A stretch of 64,000 nucleotides of DNA. Origin: Rhizobium favelukesii (GTDB lineage: Bacteria > Pseudomonadota > Alphaproteobacteria > Rhizobiales > Rhizobiaceae). The notes below the pieces were generated by a model. That model worked only from the letters and a program-made list of their open reading frames with translations, was not told the DNA's origin and did no database searches. The first letter of the stretch is position 1. Each line of letters opens with the position of its first letter. The stretch is taken from contig NZ_HG916855.1 in assembly GCF_000577275.2 (NCBI RefSeq), positions 1,550,001-1,614,000 of the forward strand, written 5' to 3'. Positions 39,094 to 46,031 of the stretch are shown piece after piece. A program made the position numbers and the translations under genes.

Positions 39094-39750
39094 CTACTCC
39101 CGAGAGCGCATAGGTGCCAGCGACATGGATTGCGAATAGGCCTGTGGCGAACGGTTCCCGGGCATGTTTTCATCCAGTATGAGCGTCTTGACGTCGTCCG
39201 AACGGATGTCCAAGGCAATGATCCGCCTCCGCATATCGATCTGCCAAACGGCGTAACCAAGTTCCGGAGTGTAGCCGCAGTCACAGCCGCAAACGCCACC
39301 TACGATTGTTTTCGGCTCTGCTGGCAAATACATGATCTGCGGTTTCGGCAATTTATAACAATGCCCCTCGTAAGCATATCCATAAATCACGCCGATAGTT
39401 TTGATGTAAGCCTTATCCCCGGGGGATAGGATGTTGACATCAACGTAGAGTTCAGATCCGCCAGGTGCTGAAAGCGCTATCAACTCGTTCTTGTATCCAC
39501 TTTTCAACTCTTCATATTTGCCCAGAAGTTTCTTAACCGCTTCGACACCGTTATCAAGATCCCTCAGGTTGGACTCTTCAAGCTCCTTCTGGATCATTGG
39601 GACTAGAGCTTCGTCGGGTATAGACACGACAATCTTCCCTAGTGCTGGGCGGCCATACAGCCGCACCTCGCCCGGATTGTAGGTCTCGTAGTCTGGGGCC
39701 CCCAACACTAGTCCGATGCCCACGCCTGGATTTCCGCAGCAGTCGCTCAT
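39094..39750 (-). CDS. 218-residue protein with Gly/Cys-rich segment, candidate YcaO-TfuA substrate
   Basis: Starts MSDCCGNPGVGIGLVLG (Cys4, Cys5). A predicted helical region spans about 47-86 (DEALVPMIQKELEES to KYEELKSGY). A compact segment near the C-terminus reads VGGVCGCDCGYTPELGY (Cys154, 156, 158). AAGGAGAGGACA precedes the ATG at 39750, 12 bp after the metallopeptidase stop, so it is the last gene of the YcaO-TfuA operon. I do not recognise the family. Alternating Gly and Cys residues are typical of sites that YcaO enzymes modify. That it is the substrate is inference only; it could equally be a structural or metal-binding partner. Confidence 0.75.
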   Translation of the reverse strand: MSDCCGNPGVGIGLVLGAPDYETYNPGEVRLYGRPALGKIVVSIPDEALVPMIQKELEESNLRDLDNGVEAVKKLLGKYEELKSGYKNELIALSAPGGSELYVDVNILSPGDKAYIKTIGVIYGYAYEGHCYKLPKPQIMYLPAEPKTIVGGVCGCDCGYTPELGYAVWQIDMRRRIIALDIRSDDVKTLILDENMPGNRSPQAYSQSMSLAPMRSRE

Positions 39751-39762
39751 TGTCCTCTCCTT

Positions 39763-40953
39763 TTAAGATCCTCTTGGATCGATAAATCCACGCCACGTAA
39801 AATTTTCTTCCAGCCGAGCGGCGGTCTCCTCCTCGGCCGAATCGAGAATTGCTCGTGTGGCCCGATGGAAGGTCAGGTTGGTTGAATCGAGTTTCTTCAA
39901 CGATCCAGCGAGTGCCCGCCCGATCTCGTCGCGCGCAGTCATCAGCGCCAGTTTGAAGAACAGCGGCCGGGCGAGGAATGATTGTGTGGTGAGTTCTCGA
40001 AACCGGTCGAATTCATCCAGCGTTAGTTCCCGCAGGTCGACGTCGAGAAGGCGGCGGTCAGCGCAACCGTGTTCAACAAGGTTGCGATGATAAAGGTCAA
40101 TGATACTATCGAAGACTGCCCCTACAAAGGGTAGCGCCCGATCGTGCGGCTCGCGCGTGACTTCTGACATGCGCCTGAAGTTGGTCGCCAGGCGTATCTG
40201 CGTCTCGGGGCTGGTTTCGGCGAAGCGGTTGAGTTCGTTGTAGAGCAGCAGATTTCCCCTTGTCCGCCGCAACAGGCGGTCGATGGCGGAATCGAAATGG
40301 AGGAAGGAGATCAGGGACACGCAGTCGGAAAAGCCTTCCGAGAAGGGAAAGAAGTCGCTTTCGCGCGACGCGCCAAGGGGAACGCCCATCTCCGAGAAGA
40401 TGATGAGATGGCCGAGTTCGTGGGCGATCGCGTCGAAATTCAGAGCGTAAGGTCTTGGTGAGCCGCCGGCATGCGAGCAACCAAGCTCCAGAAAGCCATA
40501 GCCTGCCTGGGCATTGTCCCATTCGACGAAGGGAACGATCTCCAGTTTGGGAATCGTGCCATCGAAGAACCAGCGGATCGGGTGGCCAATATAGCTCTGC
40601 CAGATGTCGAGCACACGATGGATGCAGGCATAGGCGTGCACGCCGAGATAAGGTCGCGATCGCGGGTCGAGGCCGTCGAAATGACGGTCGGGCCCTGCCT
40701 GGACCGGCGGACGGCGGATCCCCTCAAAGGGCGGCAGGCGCGACATGCCGTAGGGCTGCTTGCTGTAGAGCGGATCAGCCACATACATCAGGGCATCGCT
40801 CGGTCCTTCATTGATCTGATCGGGAAGAATTGAAAGCCAGACGCGATCTGGTTGCTCATAACCCGGGATGAAGGGCGGCTGAGGAAAAATCCAGAACCGT
40901 GTCCCTGTGCCGGCCTCCGCAGGGGCCAGCGCAACATCCGGGTGCAAATCCAT
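39763..40953 (-). CDS. Zinc metallopeptidase of the YcaO-TfuA operon
   Basis: A 396-residue protein with a gluzincin-like active site: FDAIAHELGHLIIF (HELGH at 178-182) and a third-ligand candidate Glu206 in FSEGFSDCVS. This spacing is like thermolysin-type and related peptidases. There is no signal peptide or membrane segment, so it acts in the cytoplasm or is exported by another route. It lies 40 bp after tfuA and 12 bp before the Cys-rich gene. In peptide-modification clusters such proteases often remove a leader or clip the product. I cannot assign it to a named peptidase family with confidence. Confidence 0.8.
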   Translation of the reverse strand: MDLHPDVALAPAEAGTGTRFWIFPQPPFIPGYEQPDRVWLSILPDQINEGPSDALMYVADPLYSKQPYGMSRLPPFEGIRRPPVQAGPDRHFDGLDPRSRPYLGVHAYACIHRVLDIWQSYIGHPIRWFFDGTIPKLEIVPFVEWDNAQAGYGFLELGCSHAGGSPRPYALNFDAIAHELGHLIIFSEMGVPLGASRESDFFPFSEGFSDCVSLISFLHFDSAIDRLLRRTRGNLLLYNELNRFAETSPETQIRLATNFRRMSEVTREPHDRALPFVGAVFDSIIDLYHRNLVEHGCADRRLLDVDLRELTLDEFDRFRELTTQSFLARPLFFKLALMTARDEIGRALAGSLKKLDSTNLTFHRATRAILDSAEEETAARLEENFTWRGFIDPRGS

Positions 40954-40993
40954 GTTGGCCTCGCCCTATCGGTCGAAACAACTTTACGTTTTA

Positions 40994-41749
40994 TTAGTAT
41001 GTATTAATTAATTGTATGTCAATATTGGCTGCTTCGAGATCGCGAATGAAAGTATTCGTTGCAACCCAGGTGTTGATCGGGCGGCGACCGCCAAATTCCG
41101 CCGCCAATTGGGGCGCAAGTTTCAGTGCCAGCGATGCGTCAAGGCCCTTCTGTCGAATAAGTTGCTGACGCAATCTACTGATTTCTTCGCGCCGCCAACC
41201 TTCCGCGCGAAGTATCCTATCAAAGGATCGGTCTCGAAAATTCATTCGCCGCGCGGTTGTGGATAGACTATCGCGTTGAGCCGCGCTTATGTGGCCGAGC
41301 CGCTTCAGATTGGAAAACGTCCTTTGAAGATCGATCAAGGCGTCTGTCACGGGTGGGAAGCCAAGTTCGGCCGGTCCCGATTGGACGGCGACGGCATCGT
41401 CCGGGGCCAGTATCCAGCGCCTGTAATACCTAAAGACCAGCCCCACGCCGATCATACCGTATGGACCCAGTTCCGCTGCCCGAAGCGCTCCCATGCTTGC
41501 GGCTCCGATCACCACGATCCCCTGCGCCAGCGCCCACAGGATTTCCTTATGCCGGACAGACGGACGATCTTCGAAATGTCCATCGATGATGACCATCGCT
41601 TTGGGGCGAAATGCATGAGCGGCAAGCAGTATGTCGCCCTGTGCGACCGGCTGAAGGTAGATTGCGTCGAGCGCAGCTTGGGCTTCCGGCAGTCGCAGCG
41701 TCGGGCCTAGAAAAACCAATATCGGACCTGCTTGATCGCTGGCACTCAT
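40994..41749 (-). CDS. tfuA: TfuA-like protein
   Basis: A 251-residue protein with the TfuA domain (residues 9-130): ILVFLGPTLRLPEAQAAL, then FRPKAMVIIDGHFEDRPSVRHKEILWAL, then GIVVIGAASMGALRAAEL and GMIGVGLVFRYY followed by a DDAVAV block. TfuA was first described in trifolitoxin synthesis in R. leguminosarum. It partners YcaO enzymes in installing backbone thioamides (for example thioglycine in methyl-coenzyme M reductase of archaea). It begins 9 bp after the ycaO stop, so the pair is co-expressed. The tail (about 150-251) is basic and helical. Confidence 0.92.
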   Translation of the reverse strand: MSASDQAGPILVFLGPTLRLPEAQAALDAIYLQPVAQGDILLAAHAFRPKAMVIIDGHFEDRPSVRHKEILWALAQGIVVIGAASMGALRAAELGPYGMIGVGLVFRYYRRWILAPDDAVAVQSGPAELGFPPVTDALIDLQRTFSNLKRLGHISAAQRDSLSTTARRMNFRDRSFDRILRAEGWRREEISRLRQQLIRQKGLDASLALKLAPQLAAEFGGRRPINTWVATNTFIRDLEAANIDIQLINTY

Positions 41750-41758
41750 CCTGGTCTC

Positions 41759-42973
41759 CTAGCGCACGATCGAAAATGGGCGGCCGCGAGGCATCAAGAT
41801 CCTGGCGCAGCGAACGGGACCGTCGCAATTCGAACCCAGCGGAACTGCAAGAACAGGACCAAGCGCGGCATCGATGACGCAATCAAGCATCTCCTGGAGC
41901 GTGGAAACCGGCCGGATTTCCGCAACTGGCGAGAAAGACGCCGGATTGAGAATGAGTTGGCGCGCCTTTGCAATAACGCGGTCAACACGCTTGTGATAGT
42001 GCCCCGCCGTCTGGTCGTCACGGGCGCCTGATATGGCTCCTGCTCGGGTCGCCAACGCCTCAAGCAAGGCATTTTCCGCCGCCTGGTGAAGGTTTTGCCC
42101 GGCGCAATAACCTTCTGTCGGCAGTGCAAGAACGGGATGCCTGGCGCCGATTTCGATCGTCTGGCACCAGACGACGGCAATTCCGGTCGGGGAGGGGGCA
42201 AGCCAGAACCCGGCCGATATAGCGCGTTCTGCGAGACGTTCGATCCGGCGATTGACAGCCGGGCCAAGGCTCCCGGGAGCAAGTCGGTGTCTGTCGAAGA
42301 AGCCGTGTGTGTCGAACGCTCTGGCAATCGCATCGCGCTCTATGCACTCGAAGAGCGCGTGCGCTGCCGCTTGATGCGATGTTGAATGGCACGCGAGGCC
42401 GGTGGTGGTACGAAGGAACAGCCCATCGAAGTCCGGTGGCGGATCGGTGTAGCGTGTATGCACGAGTTCGAGAGGAACCATCTGCCTCGATCCGGAGTGA
42501 AGGTCATAGGCTGCAATCCAAAGCGTTGGTGTTCGCCGCCAAGCAGCGTTTGTGCTGTTGACAAGCTGAGTGTCGAACAGTCCCTCTGGGATGGCGAGCT
42601 CATCCGCACTTGCAAGAACAGCGCTCTTGGCCGGAAGCAGCTCGGCGTAGTAGCGCTCAAGCGCCTCCATGATCGCTCCGATCGCGGCATGTGGGATGGA
42701 ACGACCTCGGCCAAGGGAGGTCACTTCTGAAAGGGCGCTTGGGCGGATCGTTTGAACCGCGGGAAGCGCCAATCGATCGAGGCCGGTGAGGTCGGCGATG
42801 CGTGTTATGCCCGCGTGCCTACAAATTGGCAGGAGCTCGCGCAGGTATATGCCGGGATCGTCCTGCGCCTCCTGGGCAAGCGGTGAACAGAGGTGGACGG
42901 TGACCTCTTCCGCAAACGCGCCGAGGAGTTCGTTGTCTGACGTGCCGTAAGTGGGCTCACCGCTCGACGACAA
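41759..42973 (-). CDS. ycaO: YcaO-domain ATP-dependent cyclodehydratase / thioamide synthetase
   Basis: About 404 residues, counted from TTG 42973, which has GAGG at a proper distance. A frame open to ATG 43099 would overlap the upstream gene by 143 bp and begins with an implausible Arg/Ser-rich stretch. YcaO features: GITRIADLTGLDRLALPAVQTIRP (55-78), the nucleotide site with MEALERYYAE (102-111), LFECIERDA (207-215) and ALLEALATRAGAISGARDD (302-320). The C-terminus lacks the PxPxP tail of azole-forming YcaO enzymes. YcaO proteins activate a backbone amide with ATP. With TfuA alongside, thioamidation is the likeliest reaction. Confidence 0.9.
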   Translation of the reverse strand: MSSSGEPTYGTSDNELLGAFAEEVTVHLCSPLAQEAQDDPGIYLRELLPICRHAGITRIADLTGLDRLALPAVQTIRPSALSEVTSLGRGRSIPHAAIGAIMEALERYYAELLPAKSAVLASADELAIPEGLFDTQLVNSTNAAWRRTPTLWIAAYDLHSGSRQMVPLELVHTRYTDPPPDFDGLFLRTTTGLACHSTSHQAAAHALFECIERDAIARAFDTHGFFDRHRLAPGSLGPAVNRRIERLAERAISAGFWLAPSPTGIAVVWCQTIEIGARHPVLALPTEGYCAGQNLHQAAENALLEALATRAGAISGARDDQTAGHYHKRVDRVIAKARQLILNPASFSPVAEIRPVSTLQEMLDCVIDAALGPVLAVPLGSNCDGPVRCARILMPRGRPFSIVR

Positions 42974-45900
42974 GGCCAAGGTCCTCGATCGACTGGTTGA
43001 TTTTCTGCTGGAGTGCGACCGCTCCCTGCGTCTGGGCAGTCTCCGCGGCAACCCGCAGATCCTCGACGACAAGATTTCGCATCGCGCCGGTGCGGGCACG
43101 CAGCATGGCGCGAACCCGGTACAGCTCGGCCAGCCAATAGGCGTGACCCGTTTCTCGTGCTTTGAGGATCGCCTGGCTGGCGACCTCGATGGCGCGATCG
43201 ACCTTGCCGAGAAGGCCCAGCATTGCGGCCTGCATCGATAGATAGATCGGCAGGTCGATCACCGCGCCGAGTTCCGCTAGAAGATCAAACCCCTTGCAGA
43301 ACCTTTCATAGCCCCCTTTAAGGTTTCCAAGATGGGCCTCGGCCCAGCCGCCGAAAAGAAGCGAAAGTCCAGCCAAAGACTGCATTTCGTGTTGTCTCGC
43401 AAATTCAGACATCTCTTCCGCAACGCTTCTCAAGCGTTTGTAATCATTGCGATAGAAGGCAGAGACAGCTTCCGTGTCGAGAGAGTGTGCCTTGCTCGGC
43501 AGGTGGGAAATCTCGTTTACGAACCGGATCATATCCTGAAGTGCATGGTCCGATTCATGCGTTTGGCCTGTCAGCCACAGCGAGAGAGCCAGTTGGCCCA
43601 GTCCACAGACACGTGCATCGTGACCACCGTAAATCGTCCGTGCTTCTGTCGCCCTTGGTGTGTCGTAGAGAGCCAGCCCTTCCCGGATTGCATTCTGCGT
43701 TTCTCGGTGACGTCCAAGGTTGAAGTCGATAGCCCAGATGCAATGCTTCATCTGCAAGCGTATTTCGGGGTCCTGTATCCCTGCCAACATGACCTGCACT
43801 TCCATCGCGCGCTCATGCATCGTCAGAAAATCGGCTCCCGTCAGCCACCAACCCCAGTAGATCGGAAACCATCGCGACTTCTCTTCCAGCGGCAGGCGAT
43901 TGGCGATCTCCACTCCGTCTTCGTAGAGCTTTCGCGCCGGCGGGAAATTCAGGCCGACCGCCCCGGTGAGCACTGGTCCCAGCGCGGTTACAGCTGTCAG
44001 ACGAAGTCGATCAACCCGGTCGACGACCTCCAGACCGTCGCAGATTGAGAGGGCATGTTCGAGATGGTGGCGGGCTTCGACCAAAGCGGAGCGACGCGCA
44101 GCCTCCTGGCCGGCCCTGATGAACAGTTGCGCGGCCGTTTCCTTGAGACCGGCACGCTCCGCATGCTCGGCACGGGAACCGACATCGATCCACGGTGCAA
44201 TTGCGGGGTCTTCGCTGACAGCGTCGAAGAGGCGCCGATGAAGGGCTTGGCTCTGCCGTCGCAGCAACAGCTTGTAGATTGTCTCCTGGATCAATGCGTG
44301 GCGAAAACCATAGGTAGTGGTTCCGCCAGCTCGCACATGTGTTACGAAACCCGTATCGCACAGCGTATCCGCCGCGTTCGCCAGCGCCTTCTTGCCATAG
44401 TCCGGGAGCAGCCTCTGAAGAAGCGGCAAGGTGAAGCGGGAGCCGGCAACGGCGCCGGCGCGTGCCACATCCCTGATCGGGCCAAGTTGACCGAGCCGCG
44501 CTTCGAGAATCTCTTCAAATGCCGAAATATGGGTTGTCGATGCCGTCTCCGGCATCGTGACATTGTCGGCGATCTTGGTGTCGGATACCCACTGGCATAT
44601 CTGCTCGATAAAGAGCGGCACGCCCCCACATATTCGCTCCGTTACCTCAACCAGCTCTGAAAACTCGGCTTGTCGGTGCTGCGGCCAGTTGCGCTCGATC
44701 GCCCGCCTCGTTTCGTCCGGATCGAGCGGTTGCAGAGACAATCGAGATGGATTGGCGTCTTCAGGCCATTCCGTCGTCGGCTCCGGACGTGTGGTCGCGA
44801 TGAGAAGAAGCCGAAGCCGCGAGATGACGCGGGCCGCCTCCATCAGAAACTCCCGCGAGGTCGGGTCAATCCAGTGAATGTCCTCGACGACCATAAGGAC
44901 CGGCCCACTCTCGCATAAAGCCTGCAGGGCCCGTGGAATTGCTTGTCGTGCTCTGTCCCGTATGAGTTTGGGATTGCTGCCTGCGAGATTTTCACTACGC
45001 CCTTCGGCACCGAGGAGATGGGCAAAGATCTCGATGATGTCGTCTTCCCGTATGCCGTGGCGCCGGAAGCGGGCGGCGACCGTGGCTGCCCTCAATTTCG
45101 ACTGTCCACCCGTTTCGGGCATGCCGGTGAGGCTGTTGACCAAGGGGTGGAGCGTCGAATGGAAGCCACCAGGCACGCATTGGAAGAAGAAGGATTTCGA
45201 TCGCTCCGCGCGCGTTTGTCTGCGGAACTCATGCAGGAGACGCGATTTTCCGATCCCAGCCTCTCCCTCGACGACGACCGTCTGCCCATTCCCGGCCACG
45301 ACGCTTTTCCACGCTTTCGAAAGTGCGTCCAGCTCGGTTGCGCGACCCACAAAGGGGCTGCCGAGCCTTCCGAACGCATAGAATCTGTCCACTTCATTTT
45401 TGTGGCCAAGCGCGCGCCATGCTCTTTCAGGCCCCTCGAATCCCTTCAGATTCCAGATGCCCTCGAACGAAAACGCGTGCGAGCGCCCCGCCAGCCTGCA
45501 GGTTTCGTCTGACACGAAGACGGTGTTGGGAGCAGCGACCGTCTCAAGCCGCGTGGCCAGAGCAAGCGCCACGCCGACAACGGGCTCATGGCTCCAGCTT
45601 TGTTCTTTAAGTCCCTGAATAAGCGCAACAGACGTGGCAATGCCGACGCGCACCTGCAGATCGGCACGACCGGCGGCCTGGCCAACGTGCCTGCAGGTTT
45701 CGATGATTTGCAAGCCGGCACGAATAGCGAGGGAAGCGGCATCCCGCGCTCCAAGATCGATCGGAAATAAGGCGAGGCCTCCGTCACCGGCCTCCACCCG
45801 AAGCACGCCTGAATGCTCTACGATCGATTTGTTCGCGGCTGCCTGAAACGCCGATATCAGCTCGCGGTAATCTTCCAGGTCCATGCGGTGGAAGAGTTCG

Positions 45901-46031
45901 GTTGAATCGACCAGATCGTAGCAAAGTGCGGTAACGATCCGGCGCTCGACCGCACTGGTTGCAACTTGGGCTTTCCTCCGGCCGCTCTTAACCGGTGGTT
46001 TCGTGGCGCCATTCGGATCGTCGTCCTGCAT
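42957..46031 (-). CDS. Class III cyclase-domain / ATPase / TPR regulator
   Basis: A 1024-residue cytoplasmic protein. The adenylate/guanylate cyclase homology domain spans about 28-205 and keeps both metal Asp positions (CYDLVDST, Asp39; AGDGGLALFP, Asp83). An AAA_16/STAND-type ATPase follows with SPFVGRATELDAL and Walker A GEAGIGKS (256-263). The rest is long alpha-helical TPR-like repeats from about 560 to the end. This layout is common in rhizobial signalling proteins that lack a DNA-binding domain. It overlaps the proposed ycaO start by 17 bp and heads the operon, so it probably senses a signal linked to the modification system. Confidence 0.88.
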   Translation of the reverse strand: MQDDDPNGATKPPVKSGRRKAQVATSAVERRIVTALCYDLVDSTELFHRMDLEDYRELISAFQAAANKSIVEHSGVLRVEAGDGGLALFPIDLGARDAASLAIRAGLQIIETCRHVGQAAGRADLQVRVGIATSVALIQGLKEQSWSHEPVVGVALALATRLETVAAPNTVFVSDETCRLAGRSHAFSFEGIWNLKGFEGPERAWRALGHKNEVDRFYAFGRLGSPFVGRATELDALSKAWKSVVAGNGQTVVVEGEAGIGKSRLLHEFRRQTRAERSKSFFFQCVPGGFHSTLHPLVNSLTGMPETGGQSKLRAATVAARFRRHGIREDDIIEIFAHLLGAEGRSENLAGSNPKLIRDRARQAIPRALQALCESGPVLMVVEDIHWIDPTSREFLMEAARVISRLRLLLIATTRPEPTTEWPEDANPSRLSLQPLDPDETRRAIERNWPQHRQAEFSELVEVTERICGGVPLFIEQICQWVSDTKIADNVTMPETASTTHISAFEEILEARLGQLGPIRDVARAGAVAGSRFTLPLLQRLLPDYGKKALANAADTLCDTGFVTHVRAGGTTTYGFRHALIQETIYKLLLRRQSQALHRRLFDAVSEDPAIAPWIDVGSRAEHAERAGLKETAAQLFIRAGQEAARRSALVEARHHLEHALSICDGLEVVDRVDRLRLTAVTALGPVLTGAVGLNFPPARKLYEDGVEIANRLPLEEKSRWFPIYWGWWLTGADFLTMHERAMEVQVMLAGIQDPEIRLQMKHCIWAIDFNLGRHRETQNAIREGLALYDTPRATEARTIYGGHDARVCGLGQLALSLWLTGQTHESDHALQDMIRFVNEISHLPSKAHSLDTEAVSAFYRNDYKRLRSVAEEMSEFARQHEMQSLAGLSLLFGGWAEAHLGNLKGGYERFCKGFDLLAELGAVIDLPIYLSMQAAMLGLLGKVDRAIEVASQAILKARETGHAYWLAELYRVRAMLRARTGAMRNLVVEDLRVAAETAQTQGAVALQQKINQSIEDLGLVVER

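Follow-up and report, generated by a model that had tools for sequence, protein, structure and literature searches.

Why should a rhizobial pair of YcaO and TfuA enzymes be encoded together with a peptidase of its own and a protein of an undescribed family? The question is raised by a locus of Rhizobium favelukesii in a 64,000-nucleotide stretch (the window; contig NZ_HG916855.1, positions 1,550,001 to 1,614,000) that is part of the 1.93 Mb contig C62 in a 7.57 Mb genome. Five open reading frames occupy positions 39094-46031, all on the minus strand, as are all window coordinates below, with intergenic gaps of -17, 9, 40, and 12 bp, the order, strand, and spacing being those of the original prediction. 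Read along the strand, they encode a 1024-aa protein with class III nucleotide cyclase and AAA_16 ATPase domains, identified by Pfam and NCBIfam matches (42957..46031); a YcaO enzyme for ATP-dependent amide activation, identified by its PF02624 match (41759..42973); a TfuA protein, its probable sulfur-delivery partner, identified by a PF07812 match (40994..41749); an HELGH metallopeptidase, P0002, recognized by its zinc motif and a predicted M36/thermolysin fold (39763..40953); and a substrate- or precursor-like protein of 218 aa, P0001, which has relatives and no family match (39094..39750). The YcaO frame is open from 43099, and its putative start, a TTG at 42973, gives the 17-bp overlap with the cyclase gene. 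On balance, we favor the reading that these genes form a sporadic, self-contained cassette, which makes a thioamide-bearing product akin to the ribosomally synthesized and posttranslationally modified peptides (RiPPs) from a precursor of the 218-aa type.

When 84,980 species genomes were scanned with an alignment of the peptidase, 339 relatives came up, and in all of the best 80 of these, from Rhizobium, Sinorhizobium/Ensifer, Mesorhizobium, Phyllobacterium, Roseibium, Microvirga, and others, the five genes lie in the same order, on one strand, and within 9.5 kb. Because the 80 loci were selected by the peptidase alone, this constancy of order and strand places the association far beyond chance. 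In each of them the candidate precursor adjoins the modifying enzymes, as expected of a thioamidated-RiPP precursor. The original prediction had seen a YcaO-TfuA operon with its own peptidase and partner protein and had proposed their joint occurrence in other genomes as the check; in these loci the operon is indeed kept together. Searches with the substrate found relatives in 30 of 150 genomes, all of a single genus and with that of the window among them, and on plasmids in 74 of 72,556 records, including letter-for-letter copies carried by plasmids of Rhizobium sp. T136, T1470, and T1473; relatives of the peptidase were found in 124 records. Twenty substrate-based loci were fetched from the 30 genomes (seven of these contigs are also among the best 80), and 19 have the same five-gene order; L023, the exception, has none of the five by family models and only a 64-aa substrate fragment. 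The standard order is also seen in five of six plasmid loci of the A and B types, whose flanks differ among the five annotated records. The sixth, L016 of Sinorhizobium meliloti Ak57 pSymB, has all five genes, with the cyclase-ATPase and YcaO in one 1433-aa frame (L016:3877-8175) that is either a natural fusion or a sequencing error.

According to the parts of PMC13063428 drawn on here, YcaO uses ATP to activate a backbone amide, while the hydrolase that helps to transfer sulfide from a thiocarboxylated carrier is TfuA. In the window the two genes are adjacent, 9 bp apart, and both products exceed curated Pfam cut-offs, TfuA with 136 bits (cut-off 30) and YcaO with about 155 bits (cut-off 25.7), against 238 and 222 bits for the other two YcaOs of the genome. 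The TfuA protein also matches the structure of a TfuA domain-containing protein (PDB 6xp8, E 3.7e-26). For both enzymes the best NCBIfam models are those of the thioglycine system of methanogen McrA, and both score well below the equivalog cut-offs (YcaO 105.9 bits against TIGR03266, the McrA-glycine YcaO, with a cut-off of 365; TfuA 160.3 bits against NF033432, with a cut-off of 235.2), on which ground we rejected membership in either. Unlike in the McrA system, the operon itself encodes the substrate candidate, a protein other than McrA. The same contig has two more YcaO-TfuA pairs (L230:7982-9975 and L231:7468-9212), each preceded by a large protein that by eye resembles a transcriptional activator, and within 16 kb around these pairs there is no match to the peptidase or the substrate.

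The first protein of the cassette exceeds the Pfam cut-offs for AAA_16 (71.5 bits; cut-off 32.6) and Guanylate_cyc (33.6 bits; cut-off 21.9), as had been anticipated from its sequence; its long C-terminal region follows these domains, and the tetratricopeptide repeats that had also been assigned to the protein find no model match in Pfam. Over about 1000 aa, from profile position 268 and thus without the N-terminal part of the model, it resembles the kinase/cyclase fusion TIGR03903 of thiazole/oxazole-modified microcin systems; at 298.2 bits it falls below the cut-off of 705.75, and membership was rejected. It is probably the regulator of the cassette.

The peptidase has no Pfam match at E ≤ 1, and even the relative from a C-type locus, P0008, reaches Peptidase_M4 only at E 0.32. 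Its HELGH zinc motif (residues 178-182; 40408..40422) is followed by E206 (40336-40338) and D210 (40324-40326), and H178, E179, H182, E206, and D210 are invariant in 31 sequences. The HExxH motif with a downstream glutamate, combined with the predicted thermolysin fold, is what would be expected of an M36/M4 enzyme. No signal sequence is seen on it by eye, and it is probably cytosolic. Further relatives of the peptidase were noticed. One on a plasmid of Nostoc sp. UHCC 0302 (L193:10391-22254; 428 bits to the family model) neighbors two ferritin-like proteins, a radical SAM protein, and proteins that by eye are haloperoxidase-like and DyP-peroxidase-like; another, on Rhizobium gallicum pRgalIE4872c (L039:8506-10503), is distant at 134 bits and has genes for multiubiquitin, ThiF, Clp protease, MBL-fold, and tyrosinase proteins in its vicinity; and a long one of 670 aa is a second, distant relative in the same genome as the window (L141:7337-9346; C62, about 482-484 kb).

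Searches of Pfam and NCBIfam (E ≤ 1), PHROGs (E ≤ 0.1), and PADLOC (E ≤ 0.001) gave no family for the 218-aa protein; as no nitrile-hydratase-like or Nif11 domain is among the Pfam and NCBIfam matches, a precursor of the NHLP (nitrile hydratase-like leader peptide) or Nif11 kind was rejected. Substrates of the A type begin with a short N-terminus with an MSxCC..P.VG-like sequence, followed by VRLYGR, a middle, a domain, and a tail. In P0001 the middle (residues 41-116; 39403..39630) is hypervariable, with a mean identity of 0.17 to 23 A-type rows, and the domain (residues 117-185, IYGYAYEGHCYKLPKP...W; 39196..39402) is conserved at 0.72. The tail (residues 186-218; 39097..39195) is the proposed core, on account of its conservation and the repeats found in divergent relatives; no other long segment is as well conserved as its residues 186-211, at 0.78. 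The tail also ranks first (0.44) when 37 more distant rows are compared, ahead of the domain (0.33) and the middle (0.06). Among 61 rows of PGxR-type substrates picked for diversity, which include no C or D types and leave out the C-type L038 and L041, L014, and the later-found L219-L223, residues P197, G198, and Y205 are invariant, and R200 is kept in 60. Around the PGNR motif formed by residues 197-200 (39151..39162), the window has MPGNRSP for LPGNRSP. The motif is followed in L219-L223 by A-V or G-V in place of S-P. G198 is the predicted thioamide site, or N199 if the analogy with the thiovarsolins (see below) is followed. The original prediction had instead drawn attention to a Gly/Cys-rich segment as the end of the protein; this stretch, GGVCGCDCGY, is internal, at about residues 151-160, and is altered or missing in many relatives, the conserved end being LDENMPGNRSPQAYS... 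An AlphaFold2 model of the substrate is of moderate confidence (mean predicted local distance difference test score 76.9; ten-residue blocks of the domain 78-92, with one at 66) and has no significant match to solved folds in a PDB search; we propose that residues 117-185 may be a folded leader.

Tails of other kinds are seen among divergent relatives. The B type, at about 42-46% in its peptidase, occurs in R. johnstonii 3841 (pRL11; L037) and R. phaseoli and retains the five genes and a PGxR tail. The C type (about 35-40% in the peptidase; R. etli CFN42 p42c and others) has a tail with three SRSGG units. In the set of B- and C-type loci that includes L037, L038, and L040, an extra small gene encoding 112-131 aa comes right after the substrate (L037:11690-12085, L040:11685-12050); that of the C-type L038 (L038:11974-12312) looks by eye like a TIG/Ig-like domain, and these genes have no Pfam match at E ≤ 1. 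The D type comprises 12 loci from the same order or class (L136, L181-L183, L202-L206, and L216-L218), with YcaO, TfuA, and peptidase adjacent in 11 of them and the cyclase on the other strand in six, in its usual place in two (L204 and L206), and not found in four. One locus (L202) reaches the contig edge ahead of any substrate; 10 of the 11 D-type substrates carry a tandem array at the C-terminal end, with units of VSGAR in L136, L182, L216, L217, and L218, VSGAK in L181, VSGSR in L183, RAVMAS in L204, DLVGRS in L206, and GMNV in L205. Copy number varies, with seven units in L216 and L217, eight in L136, and ten in L218 and L183. By eye, these tails come after the domain, at the place corresponding to the window tail. 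The finder profile was built from three truncated C- and D-type substrates and favors that domain. Over 135 substrate loci, some redundant, 114 end in N/Q-x-PG-x-R/Q and the other 21 are of the C and D types, 20 of these having tandem repeats by eye. A repeat test was passed by 15 of the 135, with none of 200 shuffles reaching the score in any; five C-type arrays visible by eye lie below its threshold, and L204, whose substrate fell under the E limit, was missed by it and its array seen separately. Some contigs carry two locus ids (L137=L094, L143=L109, L144=L089, L224=L093, L026=L037, and L042=L192), so that the 135, like the 94 used below, count loci and not genomes.

Evidence of selection comes from the codons of the arrays. 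In raw counts over pattern-matched units, which are biased against nonsynonymous differences and have no neutral expectation set beside them, codon-pair differences (synonymous/nonsynonymous) were 84/0 of 140 in L136, 112/0 of 225 in L183, 25/0 of 36 in L206, 8/0 of 24 in L205, 161/9 of 225 in L218 (where serine and arginine each draw on both of their codon boxes), 66/19 of 140 in L181, 120/40 of 396 in L204, and 12/2 of 18 in L038. As the codons differ mostly synonymously, the arrays have diverged at silent sites while staying largely constant as peptides. Tail repeats with a selected peptide sequence point to a large leader carrying a RiPP-like core, and the protein-modifying rather than peptide system suggested earlier is thus not our first choice. 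In most types a small or polar residue stands beside Arg or Lys in the conserved or repeated unit. Given the private peptidase, the simplest account is that the substrate is a RiPP-like precursor, its leader folded and its core at the C-terminus.

The chemistry, its site, the cleavage, the regulation, and the biological role we infer as follows. The conserved N-terminal part and the folded domain would together form a large leader on which the enzymes dock, with the C-terminal tail as core. YcaO would activate a backbone amide of the tail with ATP and TfuA would deliver sulfide, so that a thioamide forms next to the conserved Arg, in PG-x-R of the window type and in each SGAR-like unit of the repeat types; in the latter case a chain would therefore bear several thioamides. 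The dedicated M36/thermolysin-like peptidase would then free the modified tail or its repeats, while the cyclase-ATPase protein would sense a signal and control the cassette. The product may be a small signal or an antibiotic peptide, which is a guess.

Several observations weigh against this account. The window-type tail is conserved rather than variable, more so than usual RiPP cores. No exporter is found among the five genes, and no RiPP recognition element (RRE) domain in a Pfam scan of their products. The Nostoc peptidase relative lies in a cluster with no YcaO or TfuA match, and from this different setting it follows that the peptidase family may serve other substrates. Outside the relatives of the window the cassette is rare, with a peptidase relative in 8 of 385 class genomes (E ≤ 1e-20) and, in a phylum-level scan, in 11 of 398 (E ≤ 1e-5), where some of the relatives are long and distant; around three D-type centers the counts were 3 of 146, 11 of 193, and 4 of 144 genomes, with some genomes shared between them. 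Of 21 loci added later, no more than 10 show the complete set in the usual order, the cyclase being on the other strand in six and one or two genes not found in five. The substrate of L203 has no repeat beside its YcaO, TfuA, and peptidase, and the (GMNV)n repeats of L205, with no Arg in the unit, lie beside TfuA only, the sole YcaO found in that genome being on another contig. Finally, all 11 C-type loci (10 distinct) have cyclase, peptidase, and substrate without an adjacent YcaO or TfuA, and the flanks common to the three annotated ones imply that the C type sits at a fixed place. A failure of the five families to co-occur, or an unmodified substrate found widely without YcaO and TfuA, had been named as grounds for giving up the original prediction; the 80 best loci keep the families together, and the C-type loci in part bear those grounds out. 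All nine C-type genomes that were tested contain two YcaO-TfuA pairs each at other places, as do A/B genomes, including that of the window, and YcaO and TfuA might be supplied in trans to the C-type substrate.

The conserved window tail, the C-type loci, the GMNV units, L203, and the lack of an exporter make a retained thioamidated protein a serious rival. Here the substrate would stay intact, its tail bearing one or more thioamides, for instance in a metal-binding or protease-resistant role like McrA or uL16, and the peptidase would only trim it or act elsewhere; we regard this as possible and on the unlikely side. It accords with a large partner that has a folded domain and with the thioamidation of proteins by YcaO reported for methyl-coenzyme M reductase and uL16 in the parts of PMC13063428 drawn on here. 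It is at odds with the short, lineage-specific tandem units of varying copy number, which resemble multicopy cores, and with the presence of the peptidase in 19 of the 20 substrate-based loci. A stand-alone form, in which the intact tail, and in some lineages its repeats, would be studded with thioamides and the dedicated peptidase would serve release or turnover, seems to us rather unlikely. If true, it would be a case with a dedicated substrate beside McrA and uL16, and possibly the first poly-thioamide protein.

We think it improbable that the modified residue lies in the folded domain, in the YGYAYEGHCY strand, with the tail as a docking or assembly element whose repeats add valency. The tail could indeed serve as a recognition tag, and the 61 rows show little or no variation at G124, Y125, E128, G129, and W169; however, YGYAYEGHCY falls in predicted strands, so that a structural role suffices, its GHC part is gone in repeat-type relatives that retain adjacent YcaO-TfuA, and short repeats would presumably make poor docking domains. 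Still less probable is a regulated protease-substrate pair with YcaO as an accessory that makes another backbone change (amidine or azoline) or has lost activity, for despite the divergent YcaO of the window and the C-type loci without an adjacent pair, YcaO and TfuA are kept in all 80 best loci, and their divergence tracks that of the peptidase (r of 0.95 and 0.93 across 94 partly redundant loci), linked genes being correlated in any case.

How does the RiPP-like cassette that we favor compare with described systems? The closest likeness is to the thiovarsolins of Streptomyces varsoviensis, for which, in the parts of PMC6511847 drawn on here, the precursor VarA, the YcaO VarY, and the TfuA VarT suffice. 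There too YcaO-TfuA lies beside a precursor with a repeated core region, and the core, (A/G)PR, is a tripeptide of small residues and Arg with the thioamide between Pro and Arg. In contrast, those parts note no specific protease, whereas the window cassette has a dedicated M36-like one, a cyclase-ATPase, and a large folded domain before the tail, and is from a different phylum. A YcaO also works with NHLPs, which are long leaders with a structure of their own, and the one described in the parts of PMC12455567 drawn on here is a helical bundle; the substrate domain of the window is mostly beta in its model, with no NHLP sequence match. The YcaO of Escherichia coli, as given in the same portion of PMC13063428, thioamidates a folded protein, uL16, in Pseudomonadota too, but without TfuA or a nearby substrate gene. 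Neither an azoline dehydrogenase nor a further biosynthetic gene of the trifolitoxin type is found among the five genes, no wider search having been made. Malit et al. (2021) counted more than 500 Rhizobium biosynthetic gene clusters with a YcaO-TfuA pair (PMC8120280), so the pair as such is known, and the window cassette is probably among them; the portions of that text drawn on here describe no such precursor, metallopeptidase partner, or repeat tail. Likewise, a literature search, covering mostly titles and the openings of abstracts, found the precursor family, the repeat tails, and the peptidase partner not described. The earlier remark that the locus matches no nameable thioamide cluster thus agrees with our comparison, as far as these partial sources go.

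This work names a candidate precursor family and predicts its modified segment, PGxR or SGAR-type repeats. The eight to ten identical or nearly identical units make good test substrates, for which a +16 Da ladder would be expected. The cassette also offers a dedicated protease for the release of thioamide peptides and a proposed leader domain whose model had no significant match in our PDB search. If chemistry confirms thioamides in the tail of its own partner protein, this rhizobial cassette would be a new kind of modified-peptide system.

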